Shown: positions 4,470-64,000 of the stretch, one piece after another
How positions within the stretch are numbered: position 1 is the first letter of the stretch
Layout of the letters: the number at the start of each line of letters is the position of its first letter
Origin: Actinomycetota bacterium
GTDB taxonomy: Bacteria > Actinomycetota > Geothermincolia > Geothermincolales > RBG-13-55-18
Length of the DNA stretch: 64,000 nucleotides
Direction: 5' to 3'
NCBI GenBank assembly: GCA_014360685.1
Contig: JACIXB010000017.1
Coordinates: 171,761 to 235,760 of the forward strand
Translations under genes and position numbers: made by a program
Notes under the pieces: model-generated
Seen by the model: only the letters and a program-made list of their open reading frames with translations
Database searches by the model: none
Told to the model about the DNA's origin: nothing

Positions 4470-4712
4470 GCCGGCTGGCGTAAACGGGGGACCCCGCCCC
4501 CGGAAACAGTATGCCTCACCGCCCCGAACGATCGGGCTTTCCGGAACCTTCCCCGCGTAACGAGGCCGGCATGCTCCAAACCGGGAACTATTCCCGGAAG
4601 CGGTATGCCTCACCGTCCCGAAGGACCGAGCCTTCCATGACCCTCCTCCCGTGGGAAAGCCGGCATGTTGTAAACCGGGACCCCGCCCCCGGAAACGGTA
4701 TCCGGCCATCGC
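4470..4712. repeat. three degenerate ~95-bp direct repeats upstream of the M28 gene
   Basis: Copies begin with GCCGGC at 4470, 4565 and 4659, a period of 95 and 94 bases; the third is truncated. Shared blocks are AAACCGGGA, a C-rich stretch, CCCGGAA(A/G)C and GGTATGCCTCACCG. The second copy holds a perfect inverted repeat CCGGGAA-CTA-TTCCCGG. The first copy also has CCCGA-acga-TCGGG. The repeats occupy most of the gap between the M28 gene (start 4364) and the end of the hydrolase gene (4831). Reading through them produces false N-terminal extensions in the ORF track. No gene is seen in the gap. Confidence 0.8.
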
Positions 4713-42416: not shown

Positions 42417-43114
42417 TCATTACCGCCTTTCGCTTAGTTACCAGTGCCGCGGCATGGACCTGAGGCGCACGGTCTCCTCCCCGCGGGACCGTGGCCTTGC
42501 GCCGGTCCGGGAAAACCCCTCCCCGCCGCGAAGGTTGGTCGAGGAACCTACCATTTGTGGCCCTCATTTTTGGCCCTCTTGAACTCGGGTGTTTTCCTCC
42601 GAGAGGCCTATCAACCTCCCATATCGAGGCCAGGGCCTTGACAGGGTCCCCGCGAGAGTTGCGGGGCCGGGGTGCTTTTTTCCACGAGTTACATGCCTAC
42701 ACGGATCTTGGGGTTTGGGGCTGTGAAACTTGCGGGATCGGGGGTACTTCCTTCCCGCCCCGGTCCGGAAAAACGGATCTCGCCTTCCCTACGACGCCTT
42801 TTGCAGGTGCCGTTTTGCGCGATTTTAGTTTAAAGAAGGTGATGGGGCGGGTAGAAATATGTAGCGGCGCTTTCCCACCTTGGCCTTTGCGTTCTCTGGG
42901 TGGCGGCATGTGGAGGCGATAACCTTTCTCCCGTGAATGGGGAGAATAGAGAGGACCGGTGAAACACGGTAGGGCGAAAAGACGGTTACCCGCGGGATGG
43001 ATCGGGAGGCGGGAATATCGGGATTATTCCAGGGGAAAGACAGCCTCTGGCCCGCGGTTATATGCCATATATTGGTAATTTCTGCGGAACTTAGATTCAA
43101 TGGAGGTGAGGCGC
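42417..43114. other. long intergenic region before the 5'-nucleotidase gene
   Basis: About 700 bases with no convincing gene. A terminator-like TCCCCGC-gagagtt-GCGGGG stem followed by GGGGTGCTTTTTT ends at 42682, and TTCTCCC-gtgaatg-GGGAGAA forms a perfect stem at 42926-42946. The last 100 bases are AT-richer (TATATGCCATATATTGG), a likely promoter area. The long structured leader could hold an unknown regulatory RNA; it matches no riboswitch I know. Confidence 0.4.
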
Positions 43115-46100
43115 TTGTCCGGCAATCGTTCCCCGAAACCCCTGGTGAGGATGCTCGCGGCGGCCGCCGGCCTACTCCTGGCGGTTTCCATGCTCGTTTT
43201 GCTCTATCCCGCGGCCAGGGCGGAAACCAACGGCGAGTCCGCCCTGAGGTTCACCATCCTGCACACCAACGACGAGCACTCCGAGCTCATCCCCTACGGG
43301 CCGGCCATCGACTACCCGGACCATCCCACCGCCGGGGGTTTCGACCGCGTGGCCCACGAGATAGCGCGCATCAAGACGGAGAAGGCCTCCGCCGGGGAGC
43401 CGGTGCTCACCCTTAGCGGGGGCGACTTCTCCCAGGGAACCCTCTTCGCCTGGCTGGAGACCTCCGCCGCCGCGGAGCTCTCCCTCATGCAGGCGGTGGG
43501 CTACGATGCAGTGGCCCTGGGCAACCACGAGATGGAGCTGGGGCCGGCCTACCGGGCGGCAGCCCTCAACGCGGCCAAGGCCAACGGGGTGACCCTGCCC
43601 ATCCTCTGCGCCAACATCGACTTCGACGAGACCGATCCCGCGGACGACGCCCTGGAGGCCCTCTTCTCGGAAGAGGACAAGCAGGGGACGGAGCTGGCCA
43701 TCCAGCGCTACACCATAAAGACCCTCCCCAACGGTCTGAAGGTGGGCATCTTCGGCCTCCTGGGGGTGGAGGCGGAAGCCGTGGCTCCCGCGGCGGCGCC
43801 GGTGAAGTTCGGCAACGTGGCCGGCGACCCCGAGGACCCGGTGAGCTTCATCAACCGGGTGCTGGTGGCACAGGAGATGGTGAACACCCTGCGCGCGGCG
43901 GGTTGCCAGGTGGTGGTGGCCCTCTCCCATTCCGGCACCCGCGAGGAGACGGAGCTCCCCAAGTGGGTGACGGGCATCGACGTCATCGTGGGCGGCCACA
44001 GCCACGACCTCAACTACCCGCCCCTGACCGTGGGCGGAACCATCATCGTCCAGGCCGGGTCCTACACCTCCCACCTGGGGGTCCTGGAGCTGGAGTACGG
44101 CGACGGGAAGGTCTCCGTGCGCTCCGCCCGGGCCATAGAGATGGACGACTCCATCCCCGTGCACGAAGGCGTGGAGGCGGCCATAGACGCCTACAAGGCC
44201 GCCCTCAACGGGGCCTTGGGATTCGACATCCTGGCCCCTTACGCGGAGACGGACGTCCAGGGGGACGGCGGCTTCTTCGTTAACGACGGCCCTCCCTTCG
44301 TGGAGACCAACCTGGGGGACCTCATCGCCGATTCCTATCTGCAGACGGCGCGGGCACTGGACCCCGCCGAGCCCCCCGTCCTGGGATTCGAGGCCAACGG
44401 GGTCATCCGCTCCAATATCCCCCCGGGCGCGGAGGGGCGGTTCTCCTTCTACGACCTCTACCGCTCCCTACCCCTGGGGGGTTCGCCCTACGATCCCGCC
44501 AAGATGGGCTACCCGCTGGTCAACTTCTACCTCTTCGGGCAGGAGATATGGGGCATCCTCAACGCCACCCTGGACATGGGAGACAACCAGTTCTTCGTGC
44601 AGATAGCGGGAGGGGAGTACCAGTTCCGGCCCGCGGGGCCCGAGTTCGACCAGTCCGACCCCGCCAGCGGTAAAATAGACTACCTGTTGGTGGGCGGAAG
44701 CCCCCTCAACCCTGCCGGGCTGTATAAGGTGGCCACCAACTTCTACACCGCTTCCTTCCTGGCCCTCTTCGGGGTCATGCCCCGCGACGCCTCCGGAGCC
44801 CAGGTGGATATCGGGGAGACCAGGGTGGACGGGGACCCCGTCACCCCCGGCATCCAGGAGGTGAAGTGCTGGGAGGCCCTGGCCGGCTACGTGGGGAACA
44901 TGCCCGACCTGGACGGCGACGGGTTGAGGAACGTGGCTCCCGATTACCGTTATACGCAGGCCAGGATAACCACCCCCGACTGGTACCTGGCCGAGGGGGC
45001 CACCGCCGGGGGCATGGAGACCTACGTGCTGGTCCAGAACCCCGGGGAGTTCGACGTGCACGCCCGCATCAAGTTCCAGACCGGCTCGGGGGAGGTCTCC
45101 CCGGCCGACCTGCAGGACGTGGTCATCCCCGCCCGGTCCCGGCGCACCTTCCCGGTGAACGCGTGGGTTAGCGACTACCACGTTTCCACGCTGGTACAGC
45201 CCATATCGCCGCGGGGCGCGCAGCTGGTATGCGAGCGGGCCATGTACGGGAACGGGTGGAGGTGGGCCCATAACTCCGTGGGGGTAACCGGGCCCTACGA
45301 GCCGGCCCCGGAGTGGTACTTCGCCGAGGGTTGCACCGGCGGGGACATGGAGACCTGGCTCCTGGTGCAGAACCCCTACGGCTCCACCATCCACGTGGAC
45401 GTCTCCTTCCAGACCGGCTCGGGTGAGGTGGTGGCGCCCGAGGACCTGAAGAACGTGCCCATCCCCGCCCGTTCCCGGCGCACATTCTTCGTCAACAGCT
45501 GGGTGGACAGCTACGACGTGTCCATCATGGTGGAGGCCCTGGACGGCAACGTGATCTGCGAGCGGGCCATGTACGGGAACGGGAGGGCCTGGGCCACGGG
45601 TTCCAAGGGGACCAGCGTCCTCTCCGACCGGTGGTACCTGGCCGAGGGCGCCACCGCCGGGGGCATGGAGACCTATGTGCTGGTCCAGAACCCCGGCGAC
45701 GACCCGGTCCACGTGAACATAACCTTCCACACCGGGGGCGGAGAGACGGCTCCCCCCGAGCTGCAGAACGTGGAGATCCCCGCCCGTTCCCGGCGCACCT
45801 TCCTGGCCAACGCGTACGTGACCGGCTACGACGTGTCCACCCTGGTCACTTGCGCGGACGGCGCGGTGGCCGTGGAGAGGGCCATGTACGGCAACGGGTG
45901 GCGCTGGGGCCACGCCTCCGCGGGGATGGCCCGGCCCTCCAACGTCTGGTACCTGGCCGAGGGGGCCACGGCCGGGGGCATGGAGACCTACGTGCTGGTC
46001 CAGAACCCCGGCGACGACCCGGTCCACGTGAACATAACCTTCCACACCGGGGGAGGGAAGGTAGCCCCGCCCGACCTCCAGAACGTGGAGATCCCCGCCC

Positions 46101-46258
46101 GGTCCCGGCGCACCTTCCCGGTCAACCTCTGGGTCACGGGTTACGACGTGTCCACCATGGTCCACTGCCTGGACGGGCTGGTGGTGGTGGAACGCTCCAT
46201 GTACGGCAACGGCTGGGAATGGGGTCACTGCTCCCTGGGGTATTCCCCCGCGCCGTGA
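43115..46258 (+). CDS. secreted 5'-nucleotidase with four C-terminal YLAEG repeats
   Basis: Exported phosphoesterase of 1047 residues. Start is probably TTG 43115, since GGAGGTGAG lies five bases before it; the track's ATG 43100 overlaps that ribosome site. A signal peptide (LLLAVSMLVLLYPAARA) is followed by the metallophosphatase domain with HTNDEHSE, SGGDFSQG, GNHEME, ALSHSG and GGHSHDL, and then the 5'-nucleotidase C-terminal domain (FEANGVIRSN, FYDLYRSLPLG). The last ~430 residues are four repeats starting WYLAEGATAGGMETY or WYFAEGCTGGDMETW and ending ERAMYGNGW. The repeats match those of the M28 peptidase. Likely role: nucleotide or phosphate scavenging at the surface. Confidence 0.9.
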   Translation: MSGNRSPKPLVRMLAAAAGLLLAVSMLVLLYPAARAETNGESALRFTILHTNDEHSELIPYGPAIDYPDHPTAGGFDRVAHEIARIKTEKASAGEPVLTLSGGDFSQGTLFAWLETSAAAELSLMQAVGYDAVALGNHEMELGPAYRAAALNAAKANGVTLPILCANIDFDETDPADDALEALFSEEDKQGTELAIQRYTIKTLPNGLKVGIFGLLGVEAEAVAPAAAPVKFGNVAGDPEDPVSFINRVLVAQEMVNTLRAAGCQVVVALSHSGTREETELPKWVTGIDVIVGGHSHDLNYPPLTVGGTIIVQAGSYTSHLGVLELEYGDGKVSVRSARAIEMDDSIPVHEGVEAAIDAYKAALNGALGFDILAPYAETDVQGDGGFFVNDGPPFVETNLGDLIADSYLQTARALDPAEPPVLGFEANGVIRSNIPPGAEGRFSFYDLYRSLPLGGSPYDPAKMGYPLVNFYLFGQEIWGILNATLDMGDNQFFVQIAGGEYQFRPAGPEFDQSDPASGKIDYLLVGGSPLNPAGLYKVATNFYTASFLALFGVMPRDASGAQVDIGETRVDGDPVTPGIQEVKCWEALAGYVGNMPDLDGDGLRNVAPDYRYTQARITTPDWYLAEGATAGGMETYVLVQNPGEFDVHARIKFQTGSGEVSPADLQDVVIPARSRRTFPVNAWVSDYHVSTLVQPISPRGAQLVCERAMYGNGWRWAHNSVGVTGPYEPAPEWYFAEGCTGGDMETWLLVQNPYGSTIHVDVSFQTGSGEVVAPEDLKNVPIPARSRRTFFVNSWVDSYDVSIMVEALDGNVICERAMYGNGRAWATGSKGTSVLSDRWYLAEGATAGGMETYVLVQNPGDDPVHVNITFHTGGGETAPPELQNVEIPARSRRTFLANAYVTGYDVSTLVTCADGAVAVERAMYGNGWRWGHASAGMARPSNVWYLAEGATAGGMETYVLVQNPGDDPVHVNITFHTGGGKVAPPDLQNVEIPARSRRTFPVNLWVTGYDVSTMVHCLDGLVVVERSMYGNGWEWGHCSLGYSPAP

Positions 46259-46518: not shown

Positions 46519-49194
46519 TTAGGCGGCGGCGCGGCGGGAAAGCAGGATGCCCCCGCCCACCAGCAGGATGGCGAAGATGACGGAGAGGACCACGGCCGTC
46601 ACCCAGCTGGCCTTGGATCCGGACTTGTAGTTGTAGGTGGGCTTCATCTGGTAGACGAAGCGCACCTGGTTGTCGGCATCCTCTGACCGCCCCAGCAGGT
46701 GGTCGAACTCCTCGCCCCGCTCGGCGATGGCTTCCAGCTCCGCCTCCGAGGTGTTGAGCATGACCAGGTTCTTGTACAGCCCGTCCACCATCTGCTGCGT
46801 CCCTCCGCCCACCTGGGTGAGCCCCTCCTTGATGGCGTTGGTCCCGTAGAGGAGGGTGTCCGGGGCGTCCGAGCTGCCGATACCCACGATGGCGTCGGCC
46901 AATCCGGCGGAGAGCATCTGCAGGCCCTCCAGGAGCCCGGGGTTGTCGGGATCTCCCGTGGACATGCCCGCCTTGATCTGGTGCAGTCCCATCTGCATGG
47001 CGGCCATGGCGTAGAGCAGCGTTTCGTCTGTAGCCGCGTCCCCGATGCCCGCCTTCATCTGGTTGAGCCCAGCCTCCACCGCCGCCACCGCATAGAGGAG
47101 GGTGTCCGGGACGGCATGGTCACCGATCCCCTGCAATATCTGGAGCAGCCCGCCCTGCACGGCCACCGCGGCGTAGAGGAGGGAGGGGCTCACCGTGGGA
47201 TCGCCTATCCCGGCGGCTATGTCCTCCAGGCCGGCCTGGATGGCGGCCATGGCATAGAGCAGGGTGTTCGGTGTGGTGGAAGACCCCACCCCCGCGGCGA
47301 TCTGCTGCAGCCCCTGCTTGAGGCCCAGGCCGCCGGGGTTGTCCAGGCCCAGCATGATCTGCTGCAGGCCGGGGATGATCTGGGTGTCCATCATGTCCTT
47401 GATGTACTGGAGGTTGGCGATGATGCCGTTGGGAAGCGCAGCGGCCAGGCCGTCGTAGATGGCCTGGAGCCCGGAAGCAATACTCCCCAGGTTGGAGGCG
47501 TAAGCGCTAAGCATTCCAAGTATAGTGGGTTCATATGTGGTGGGCCAGTTGGGGTCAGTCACAGATATGGTATCCACGTAGTCATATACCCCCGTGCCTC
47601 CTGGTGACAGCAGACCCTGTATCCCCTGCACTCCCGGGATGAGGCTTCCACTGAGGTTGGTGGCCATGGTGTTCAGGCCGTCGATGATGGTCCCGGGCTG
47701 CCCCACGCTTCCCAGTCCGTTGCTCATATCCTGTATGCCGGCGAGGATCTGGGAGAGGCCGTTCAGCAGGGTTCCAGGGGTCGTGGGGTCGCCGATGGCC
47801 CCGATCATCTGGTTGGCTCCCAGGAGGATCTGGCTCAAGCCGGCCTGCACCTGGGCCACCGCCCAAAGTAGGGTGTTGGGGCTCGAGGCGCTCCCGATGC
47901 CCGCCTTGATGCTCTCCAGGCCCGCCTGCATCTGGGCCATGGCGTAGCGCAGGGTGGGAGAGGTGCTGGGGTCGCCTATGCCGGCGGCGATTTCCTGGAG
48001 CCCCTCGTCCATCTGGGCCATGGCGTAGAGCAGGGTTTCGGCCGTCGTGGCGCTCCCGATCCCGGCCAGCATCTGCTGCAGCCCGGCGGTCACCTGGGCA
48101 TCGGCGTAGAGCAGGGTATCCGGGGTGTCCTCCGAGCCGATGCCCGCCGCCGCCTGCCTCACGCCGGGTATCATGGCCGTGTCGATGTTGGCCTTGGCGT
48201 AGGGCAACCCCTCCTGGGCGTCGGCCATCATCCTCAGCCCCTCGTCCACGGCGGTGATGCCGTAGAGCAGGGTGTCCTCCTTGGCGGGGTCACCCACGCC
48301 CTCGTTGATCTGCTTGACCCCGCCGTAGAGCTCTTCCAGCCCCGCTTTGAACAAGGCCGTGGGGTTCACCTGGTTGGTCTCCGGGAAGACGAAGGCCACG
48401 GCCAGGGTGAGGGGCGGCATCTGGAAGTTCTTCACGTCGGCCTTGACCCAGATGGTGTGGCTCTCCTCGGTGGCCGGAGGGAAGAGGGGGATGGACCAGC
48501 CCACGTTGTAGAAGTCGGGCATGGGCACTACCAACCCCGTGGGATCGGCCTCCAGGTTGTAGAAGATGCGGTTGTCGAAATACCAGTCGTAGGGTTGGAT
48601 GACCAGGGGTAGGTAGGTCTCCACCTCGGTCTCCTTCATCTCCCCGGTGTCCGGGTCCTTGTACTCCACGCGGGTCTTCTCCTTGCTGGTGTTGCGGAAG
48701 GTCACTTCCATCTCGAAGCGCCCGCTCTTCCCGGTGATCTCGTTGAGGTCCTCCACCGGCACGCCGTCGAAACGGTACTTGAAGCGGACATCCAGGGGGA
48801 TACGGGTCTTGGCTTCTTCCACCATGGCCTCCGAGAACTTGGCGGCGGCGATGTAGTTGGCGTGGTCCTCGGACTTCAGCCCCTCCCATACCAGGTAATC
48901 GCCCTCCACCTTGGGCTTGGTGAAGCTTTTAACCCCCTGCCAGCCGGTGTCCTCGTCGAAGGCCTTCTTCTCCCGGACATCGAAGGTGCCGTCGCCGTTG
49001 AGGCTCAAGATCTCGAATACCTGTATCTCCTCTATCTCACCGGACCAGTCCAGGGTGCAGAAGACGAATTCCGAGTCCACCACGTCCTTCTTCCCCGTGG
49101 TCTCGGTGGTGGCTCCGGCCGGTATAACCGTGGTCAGGGCCACCACCATGCCCAGGGAGAGGATTACCGCCAGGAGTTTCTTGACGCGCCTCAT
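46519..49194 (-). CDS. secreted, membrane-anchored 27-residue-repeat protein
   Basis: Protein of 891 residues of unknown function. Start at MRRVKKLLAV with AGGAGG eight bases upstream. An N-terminal signal peptide (LLAVILSLGMVVALTTV) leads to a ~250-residue beta-rich domain (DWYFDNRIFYNLEA; IPLFPPATEESHTIWV). From about residue 290 to 830 runs an array of about twelve units of 27 residues with consensus GIGDPTTPDTLLYAMA then A-x-QAGLEQIKA, interrupted in the middle by a ~150-residue degenerate part. A single membrane helix (VTAVVLSVIFAILLVGGGILL) and SRRAAA end anchor it. The repeats recall the L-x-x-G heptads of YhgE/Pip surface proteins, but sequence differs. A small membrane gene precedes it in the same operon. 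Confidence 0.78.
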   Translation of the reverse strand: MRRVKKLLAVILSLGMVVALTTVIPAGATTETTGKKDVVDSEFVFCTLDWSGEIEEIQVFEILSLNGDGTFDVREKKAFDEDTGWQGVKSFTKPKVEGDYLVWEGLKSEDHANYIAAAKFSEAMVEEAKTRIPLDVRFKYRFDGVPVEDLNEITGKSGRFEMEVTFRNTSKEKTRVEYKDPDTGEMKETEVETYLPLVIQPYDWYFDNRIFYNLEADPTGLVVPMPDFYNVGWSIPLFPPATEESHTIWVKADVKNFQMPPLTLAVAFVFPETNQVNPTALFKAGLEELYGGVKQINEGVGDPAKEDTLLYGITAVDEGLRMMADAQEGLPYAKANIDTAMIPGVRQAAAGIGSEDTPDTLLYADAQVTAGLQQMLAGIGSATTAETLLYAMAQMDEGLQEIAAGIGDPSTSPTLRYAMAQMQAGLESIKAGIGSASSPNTLLWAVAQVQAGLSQILLGANQMIGAIGDPTTPGTLLNGLSQILAGIQDMSNGLGSVGQPGTIIDGLNTMATNLSGSLIPGVQGIQGLLSPGGTGVYDYVDTISVTDPNWPTTYEPTILGMLSAYASNLGSIASGLQAIYDGLAAALPNGIIANLQYIKDMMDTQIIPGLQQIMLGLDNPGGLGLKQGLQQIAAGVGSSTTPNTLLYAMAAIQAGLEDIAAGIGDPTVSPSLLYAAVAVQGGLLQILQGIGDHAVPDTLLYAVAAVEAGLNQMKAGIGDAATDETLLYAMAAMQMGLHQIKAGMSTGDPDNPGLLEGLQMLSAGLADAIVGIGSSDAPDTLLYGTNAIKEGLTQVGGGTQQMVDGLYKNLVMLNTSEAELEAIAERGEEFDHLLGRSEDADNQVRFVYQMKPTYNYKSGSKASWVTAVVLSVIFAILLVGGGILLSRRAAA

Positions 49195-49206
49195 TCCCGC
49201 CACCTC

Positions 49207-49761
49207 CTACTCACCCGCGGATCCGGACGTCTCCACCGCCTCCTTGCGGCGCGGCGAGATGAGCACGGCGTCCAGCACCGCGGCCAGGAGCATCCCGAAG
49301 AGGAGGGAGAGTAGGGTGCCGAAGAGGGTGGTCATGGCCCTGGGAAGGGCCTCCACGGGCTTCTCCATCAGCAGGTAGTCGAACCTGGAGATGGCTCCCA
49401 GGAATACCCCCCAGCCTACCAGGTACATGGGGAGCATCTCCCGCATCTTGGGGATGGACACCAGGCCGGCGATGAGGATGAAGGTGGCCCCGGCTATGGC
49501 CACCGAGAGACCGTAATAGAGCGGGAAGACCAGCATGTAGAGCACGAAGCTCAGCAGTCCCGCCAACACTCCCAGCACCGATCCCAGGGTCATCCAGGGC
49601 AGGGCCTTGGCTAAAGCCGGCCCGTAGGCCATACAAACCCCGAAGGCTACCAGAGCCGCCCAGTAAGCCTTGGCCCCCAACCAGTCGAACAGCCAGATCC
49701 AGAAGAAGGCCACCACGGCCAGCACCACGGCCAGGATGGCGTTACGCTTGACGTTTTCCAT
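49207..49761 (-). CDS. small integral membrane protein (DUF1097-like, tentative)
   Basis: Protein of 184 residues with about five membrane segments (AVVLAVVAFFWIWLFDWLG; ALVAFGVCMAYGPALA; LGVLAGLLSFVLYMLVFP; GATFILIAGLVSIP; LFGTLLSLLFGMLLAAVL). Start ATG 49761 with GGAGGGG seven bases before. Length and an early W-x-W resemble DUF1097 proteins, but this is a guess. It is only 12 bases before the repeat protein, so the two are co-translated and may act together at the membrane (inference). Confidence 0.65.
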   Translation of the reverse strand: MENVKRNAILAVVLAVVAFFWIWLFDWLGAKAYWAALVAFGVCMAYGPALAKALPWMTLGSVLGVLAGLLSFVLYMLVFPLYYGLSVAIAGATFILIAGLVSIPKMREMLPMYLVGWGVFLGAISRFDYLLMEKPVEALPRAMTTLFGTLLSLLFGMLLAAVLDAVLISPRRKEAVETSGSAGE

Positions 49762-50033
49762 ACTCACCCCTCCCTCAGGTACGCGATGAACCGCCGACCG
49801 ACCCCTGGCAAGATATGTTTAACTGTTGTGTTGGGAATCCACCACGGTGGGAATGGAGTTCCGCGGACCGCATGCGGGGCATCACCTCCTCCATCCGAGC
49901 CGCTCCCTGCCTCACACCATTATTAAACAACTGTGACATATTAAGCAATATAAAACGGCCTGCGCCGTACGTTTTCACGCTCCCGGCGAGGTGATTTACG
50001 TAAAATTCTTCCACCTCCGCCCCCCGTTTACCT
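49762..50033. other. intergenic region upstream of the repeat-protein operon
   Basis: AT-richer part near 49915-49955 (TATTAAACAACTGTGACATATTAAGC) may hold the promoter for the membrane protein operon on the minus strand. No gene. Confidence 0.4.
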
Positions 50034-52150: not shown

Positions 52151-52590
52151 GCTCCCCGGGAGAATCTTCCGCTCGGGAAGGGCAGGGGTACCGGGATGTT
52201 CCACGTAAAAAAAGTAAGGAGATACCATGGCGTCCCGCGCCACCCGGACGCGCGCCACGGCCGGAACCCGGGCCCATGGAGATCAGGGGCACCGATGTAT
52301 TCCACGTAGCAAAGGTCAGGGGATTCTTCGGTCTCCCGCATCGCCCGGTTGCCGGTTCCGGCGCCCTTTTGGCCCTGTTGTCAGAATGTGCCATATCCAT
52401 CTCGTGAGCCGGGATCCCCGGGCTTCGTTTCCCGTGCTTGGCAAAAGGCGGATACGCGGGCAGGTCATGTCTTTAAAAAGGATCAGGGAGCGCCGTTGGG
52501 ATGCCGAAAAAAGGGTTGGGTGGGTGGAAGGAAAAATCGTCCCGGAGAAGAAAATAGGAGAGAGATAAACCCGTGGAAAGGAGTGAGGAG
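52151..52590. other. intergenic region with ~101-bp degenerate repeat
   Basis: No convincing gene. A block of about 44 bases (CAGGGGTACCGGGATGTTCC and following, then CAGGGGCACCGATGTATTCC) occurs at 52183-52226 and 52284-52327, with CCACGTA and AAAG-T-AGG conserved. Sequence after each block is also weakly related. The ATG and TTC codons in them give rise to several false ORFs. Confidence 0.6.
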
Positions 52591-52887
52591 ATGGCTACCA
52601 AACCAGCGAAGAAGACCGCGGCCAAGAAGACCGCCGCCAAGAAGCCCGCCGCCAAGAAGACGGCGGCCAAGAAGACCGCGGCCAAGAAGCCCGCCGCCAA
52701 GAAGACGGCGGCAAAGAAGACGGCGACCAAGAAGACCGCCGCCAAGAAGACCGCGGCAAAGAAAACTGCGGCCAAGAAGACGGCGGCCAAGAAGCCCGCC
52801 GCCAAGAAAACCGCGGCCAAGAAGACCGCCGCCAAGAAGCCCGCGGCCAAGAAGACGGCGGCCAAGAAGCCCGCCGCCAAGAAGTAG
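52591..52887 (+). CDS. AAKK-repeat protein, histone H1 tail-like
   Basis: Protein of 98 residues made almost only of Ala, Lys, Thr and Pro. After MATKPAKK come 18 pentapeptides of the form (T/P)AAKK. Such tails bind DNA without sequence preference and compact it, as in Hc1, the C-terminal arms of actinobacterial HU, and AlgP-like proteins; here there is no globular part. Codons vary between copies (GCC/GCG/GCA; AAG/AAA), so protein-level selection is more likely than a recent repeat expansion. Start ATG 52591 follows AAAGGAGTGAGGAG. A terminator with a long loop follows. Confidence 0.85.
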
Positions 52888-63550: not shown

Positions 63551-63622
63551 GGGTCAGGTCTGGTTATCCTTACCTTGAGGCCGATCACCAACCCCTGCAG
63601 GGGACGGCCTCGCCCCGCTCGA

Positions 63623-64000
63623 CATGAACTCTCCCCATCAAACGTCATTGCGAGGAGCGAAGCGACGAAGCAATCTCTCATGGATCCCGTACGAGACGGC
63701 TTCGCTACGCTCGCCATGAACTCTCCCCATCAAACGTCATTGCGAGGAGCGAAGCGACGAAGCAATCTCTCATGGATCCCGTACGAGATGGCTTCGCTAC
63801 GCTCGCCATGAACTCTCCCCATCAAACGTCATTGCGAGGAGCGAAGCGACGAAGCAATCTCTCATGGATCCCGCACGAGATGGCTTCGCTACGCTCGCCA
63901 TGACATTTTAATTGCGGAGGAGAAGGCCTCGCCCCTCTCGCCATGAACTCTCCCCATCAAACGTCATTGCGAGGAGCGAAGCGACGAAGCAATCTCTCAT
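63623..64000. repeat. 92-bp tandem repeat of the cattgcgaggagcgaagcgacg type
   Basis: Copies start (CATGAACTCTCCCCATCAAA) at 63623, 63715, 63807 and 63942; the first three have a 92-base period and the fourth is cut by the window end. Each has GTCATTGCGAGGAGCGAAGC GACGAAGCAATCTC, with ATTGC/GCAAT ends in inverted order, and a TTCGCTACGCTCGCC block. The array is disrupted before the fourth copy by CATTTTAATTGCGGAGGAG. This element occurs in many unrelated bacterial genomes. ORF 63575-63811 is its translation, not a gene. Confidence 0.92.

Follow-up and report, generated by a model that had tools for sequence, protein, structure and literature searches.

The repeat surface protein and the small membrane protein encoded directly upstream of it are best read, with a probability of roughly one half, as an extracytoplasmic spike which is folded as a hairpin and docked on a membrane module of small size, a pair which would serve as an accessory or conduit for movement across the envelope. 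Computation shows the homology of the N-terminal domain (N-domain), the make-up of the repeat from heptads, the pairing of the two genes and the joint variation of two repeat arms. The genes form a two-gene operon on the minus strand of the window, i.e., of the whole 64,000-nucleotide stretch of DNA that was analysed. The partner membrane gene comes first and is followed by the gene for the repeat surface protein. The features are as follows.

49207..49767, minus strand: partner gene, 186-aa ORF for a membrane protein, DUF1097-like (PF06496)
46519..49203, minus strand: repeat surface protein, ORF of 894 aa from a GTG start
49114..49203, minus strand: signal peptide or N-terminal hydrophobic segment, residues about 1-30 (hydropathy, low-confidence model)
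48364..49086, minus strand: conserved beta-rich N-domain, residues about 40-280 (homology to the N-domains of LxxG-heptad proteins)
47638..48363, minus strand: arm 1, first repeat block, residues about 281-522 (unit table, spacing, arm boundaries)
47293..47637, minus strand: central non-repeat segment, the proposed tip, residues about 523-637 (longest gap between units)
46720..47292, minus strand: arm 2, second repeat block, residues about 638-828 (unit table, arm boundaries)
46534..46611, minus strand: C-terminal transmembrane helix, residues about 865-890 (hydropathy, low-confidence model)

The likelier start of the surface protein is the ATG at 49194, which gives 891 aa and has AGGAGG 8 bases before it. 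From this start the gap to the end of the partner ORF is 12 bases, exactly the distance at which an earlier note on this DNA had placed a small membrane protein gene; the end coordinate given there agrees with this ATG as well. A pattern scan found no promoter consensus. By hydropathy the surface protein possesses a single N-terminal and a single C-terminal segment, starting at residues 6 and 862, respectively; the low-confidence model has helices at 2-26 and 865-893. The order signal peptide, beta domain, repeat array and single C-terminal helix, as originally described, is borne out by the ORF, by hydropathy and by the low-confidence model. Sequence searches of Pfam, NCBIfam, PADLOC and PDB gave no match for the surface protein, and the N-domain is covered by no Pfam or NCBIfam model. 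The profile of the surface-protein family had chance-level helical matches only in the PDB (best E 0.069), and a plasmid search with the window protein had none.

The 27-residue repeat is built from heptads

Residues 302-800 of the surface protein contain 11 clear 27-residue units and about two degenerate ones. The regular repeat which the earlier note had put at about twelve units is thus real. Self-identity at lag 27 amounts to 134 of 473 compared positions; 2000 shuffles reached at most 67, all lags considered. Tandem repeat detection on the DNA level picks up part of the array only. The array is not uniform. Arm 1 has units at residues 302, 354, 381, 408, 435, about 469 (degenerate) and 496, arm 2 at residues 638, 665, 692, 719 and 774, and a non-repeat segment of about 115 residues lies between the two blocks.

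An alignment of 288 units from the window's class, Geothermincolia, shows a hydrophobic residue at positions 11, 18 and 25 in 97, 93 and 88%, and Gly or Ala at positions 14, 21 and 28 in 99, 97 and 87%, respectively; positions 11 and 21 served in the selection of the units, the other heptad positions did not. LxxG/A recurs in phase at 11-14, 18-21 and 25-28 and is interrupted by a six-residue break every 27 residues, i.e., the 27-mer consists of three in-phase LxxG heptads and an insert of six residues with a high content of Gly, Ser, Thr and Pro. Rare unit spacings of 34, 41 and 48 correspond to whole added heptads, the heptad phase being kept. Spacings of 49-52 and 55 are due to recurrent segments near the array ends, and a spacing of 54 to units overlooked by the search pattern.

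The window protein has no match to the heptad model TIGR03057 at E<=1 and does not reach the curated cut-off; 3 of 21 class members match it weakly (best E 0.007). The model has a length of 28 and stands for four uninterrupted heptads, a run which is absent from the window protein. The model misses the protein because a six-residue insert sets off each group of three heptads. Two relatives outside the class (L094, L100) mix ordinary heptads with 27-mer-like units. A profile check of the array, suggested at the outset, returned no matching model from the libraries. The initial view that the repeat differs from the heptads of YhgE/Pip, as if unrelated to them, is not supported: the unit is made of three LxxG heptads plus the insert, and homologues which share the N-domain carry TIGR03057 heptads.

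Pairing with a membrane protein within the class and beyond

The surface protein gene is present in 24 of the 31 genomes of the class. The partner is found in 23 of the 31, the same set minus one genome with a fragment only. It is located directly upstream of 27 of the 30 family genes which have readable upstream sequence; three solitary paralogues (G025, G026, G028) are without an adjacent partner. One genome (G014) has the whole pair twice in tandem, duplicated as one unit (L052). The named relatives found with the window protein are Candidatus Solincola genomes, which places the window in that group of Actinomycetota. These counts answer in the affirmative the question, raised in the earlier note, whether the two genes co-occur elsewhere. 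Beyond the pair, conserved neighbours reflect only synteny among close relatives (undecaprenyl-synthase-like and aldolase-like genes), and no cargo gene is conserved near it. Full-text literature searches, which covered open-licence papers, turned up neither this gene pair nor an MMPL/heptad pair.

The partner has 4-5 helices predicted by hydropathy. In size and sequence match it resembles DUF1097 (PF06496), the window copy being just under the curated cut-off (E=5.3e-5, 23.9 bits; Pfam gathering cut-off 24.6 bits). In a 22-member partner alignment, which includes two more distant partners, 20 members match DUF1097 at E<=0.1 (best 7.1e-12). To our knowledge, a heptad protein has not been described as the partner of a DUF1097 protein.

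In a single genome, G029, the partner occurs at L042:5914-6502 and again at L057:10236-10824, and the two sequences are 99.2% identical over 589 bp, a stretch which spans little beyond the gene; for the adjacent surface genes, so far as they can be aligned, identity is 66-72%. In G021, G022, G028 and G030 near-identical stretches (96.5-100%) likewise run to contig ends at the partner. The simplest reading is that the partner alone was recently copied or underwent gene conversion, and this suggests that one membrane module serves two different spikes.

A search of the phylum with the N-domain gave matches beyond the class at 22-39% identity. When the N-domain of the class is compared with two outside groups, hhalign probability is 99.8% for both, with E 1.8e-30 and 4.5e-29. 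These groups are LxxG-heptad (TIGR03057) proteins of other Actinomycetota and Bacillota, and such distant relatives match TIGR03057 strongly, down to E 1.3e-39. Other Pfam matches of the relatives, e.g., TFR_dimer or COG6, are taken as chance.

The upstream genes of the two groups are of different kinds. In one group (L091, L092, L094, L098, L100 and L101) a small multi-helix membrane protein is encoded directly upstream, as it is in 10 of 10 loci from the class of G101 (partly the same genes). The partner of the window's class is weakly homologous to the other small partners (E=3.1e-5; hhalign probability 22%). In the other group an MMPL transporter of about 700 aa is located directly upstream, namely in L093, L095, L096, L097, L103, L104, L105 and L107, the gene in L103 matching PF03176 with E=2.6e-77; in L099 the upstream MMPL transporter is cut by the contig end. 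MMPL is also directly upstream in a gut contig (L073), in Subdoligranulum variabile (L121) and in L123, and is not found upstream in gut contig L122. In G229 a single ORF (L109:6708-8525) joins a multi-helix membrane segment, which resembles the small partner, to the N-domain and has no heptads; at least one lineage thus does without the arms. In L100 (8115-8876) the reading frame of the membrane partner also takes in an HTH (BldC-like) sequence at the N-terminus, a matter of start-codon choice more than an established fusion.

The window protein shares both traits of the N-domain family, a homologous N-domain and a membrane-protein gene immediately upstream. With the LxxG-heptad (TIGR03057) proteins located beside MMPL/RND transporters in Bacillota and some Actinomycetota it further has the LxxG heptads in common. 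It differs from them in two respects: its heptads come in threes with a six-residue insert, and its partner is a small DUF1097-like protein instead of an RND pump.

A comparison with YhgE/Pip proteins, including EsaA/YueB of type VIIb secretion, is instructive. They possess a long extracellular region between membrane segments, as the window protein would. The extracellular domain of EsaA is elongated and able to span peptidoglycan (PMC9600267). In lactococcal YjaE, TIGR03057 heptads are found together with phage-infection-protein domains (PMC4155822). Membership of the window protein in YhgE/Pip is ruled out. TIGR03061, the model of the YhgE/Pip N-terminus, has no match in the window protein or elsewhere in its genome, and the N-domains differ. 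With a single C-terminal hydrophobic segment the window protein also lacks the multi-helix ABC2-type C-terminal membrane domain (hydropathy; no Pfam match).

Covarying arms and the proposed spike

In 26 proteins a central non-repeat segment divides the repeats, and the lengths of arm 1 and arm 2 correlate with r = 0.86. After correction for relatedness (independent contrasts on the N-domain tree) the covariation persists with r = 0.76 and p = 6e-6. In one of the 26, L056, the reading frame seems to be broken within arm 2 and the C-terminus lies in another, overlapping frame; the length of arm 2 is for this reason measured imperfectly in this protein. We read the covariation as the mark of an out-and-back structure; it suggests that the array is an antiparallel hairpin rather than a one-way solenoid. 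Overall growth of the array, extending both arms uniformly, could explain part of the covariation and is the weaker alternative.

The whole protein (with five sequences) and 145 aa of the array (with six) were modelled by AlphaFold. Both models are of low confidence (mean pLDDT 42 and 47), and both display helices of about 19 residues with short loops between them in regular units; Foldseek found no significant fold match for either. At this low confidence the models support helix-loop units, not a fold. The undescribed solenoid of the earlier note is not borne out, the models being of low confidence and the covarying arm lengths favouring a hairpin.

A one-way stalk is the first alternative to be weighed, i.e., an extended helical solenoid or coiled coil standing on the C-terminal helix and carrying the N-domain beyond the wall as adhesin or receptor. 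The order signal peptide, N-domain, array and C-terminal helix would suit it, as would the number of units per protein, which varies widely across the family, up to 18, as in length-variable stalks. Such a stalk has no need of arms which covary around a central segment; the G229 fusion ties the N-domain directly to a membrane segment, and for a plain adhesin one would not expect a membrane protein as an almost invariable partner. We consider the stalk unlikely, and the plain adhesin is demoted because of gene pairing and arm covariation.

The hairpin spike could be assembled as follows. The 894-aa protein would be exported and its N-domain held against the small DUF1097-like protein on the outer side of the membrane. 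From there a helical hairpin would be sent out, with arm 1, the tip, and arm 2 leading back to the C-terminal membrane helix. The LxxG heptads of the arms would pack as roughly 19-residue helices with a Gly/Pro/Thr loop at every third heptad. Arm length differs between species, perhaps with the thickness of the envelope. Finally, spike and membrane module would act together as an accessory or conduit for movement across the envelope. From the combined observations we infer the hairpin fold, the contact with the partner and the role in transport. The last is the weakest step and, taken on its own, falls somewhat short of an even chance; it draws on the analogy with the MMPL/RND-linked relatives and EsaA. 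In our reading the spike may work like the EsaA/Pip spike or like an exporter accessory.

A sensor, in which the N-domain or the tip binds a ligand and the signal passes via the small membrane protein, would profit from the same conserved N-domain and fixed partner gene, and the partner which is nearly identical at two loci next to diverged surface proteins fits it as well. Outside the closest relatives no kinase, sigma factor or other regulator is a conserved neighbour, and the relatives pair with transporters; we regard a sensor as quite improbable. Least probable by far is that the protein is a receptor for phages or for contact, in the manner of Pip/YueB, and otherwise has no function: in Lactococcus, phage infection requires the heptad-bearing YjaE and Pip (PMC4155822), yet such use by phages leaves the conservation of the gene pair unexplained.

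The docked hairpin spike, if correct, has wider implications. The N-domain, unnamed and widely spread, gains a defined context. The exchange of partners and the gene fusion tie uncharacterised DUF1097 proteins to RND-associated surface proteins, and matched arm lengths offer a sign of a hairpin spike from sequence alone. A more extended and rather doubtful view is that of an undescribed class of envelope machines found across phyla, in which the N-domain with an LxxG spike of variable length has as its base an MMPL/RND transporter in some cases and a small DUF1097 protein in others; DUF1097 might then be a transporter or the membrane core of one, and the 27-mer a segmented form of the spike.

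Other repeats in the window

Several other repeats are present in the window. At 43100-46258 a 5'-nucleotidase-like secreted protein contains about four copies of a 105-residue repeat starting WYLAEGATAGGMETYVLVQNPG. A lysine/alanine-rich, histone-H1-like ORF of KKTAA repeats at 52573-52887 comprises about 18 copies of a 15-base unit. On the DNA level, a 94-bp repeat is located at 4499-4680 (two copies, 76% matches) and a 92-bp tandem repeat at 63603-63903, close to the window end (3.3 copies, 97% matches).
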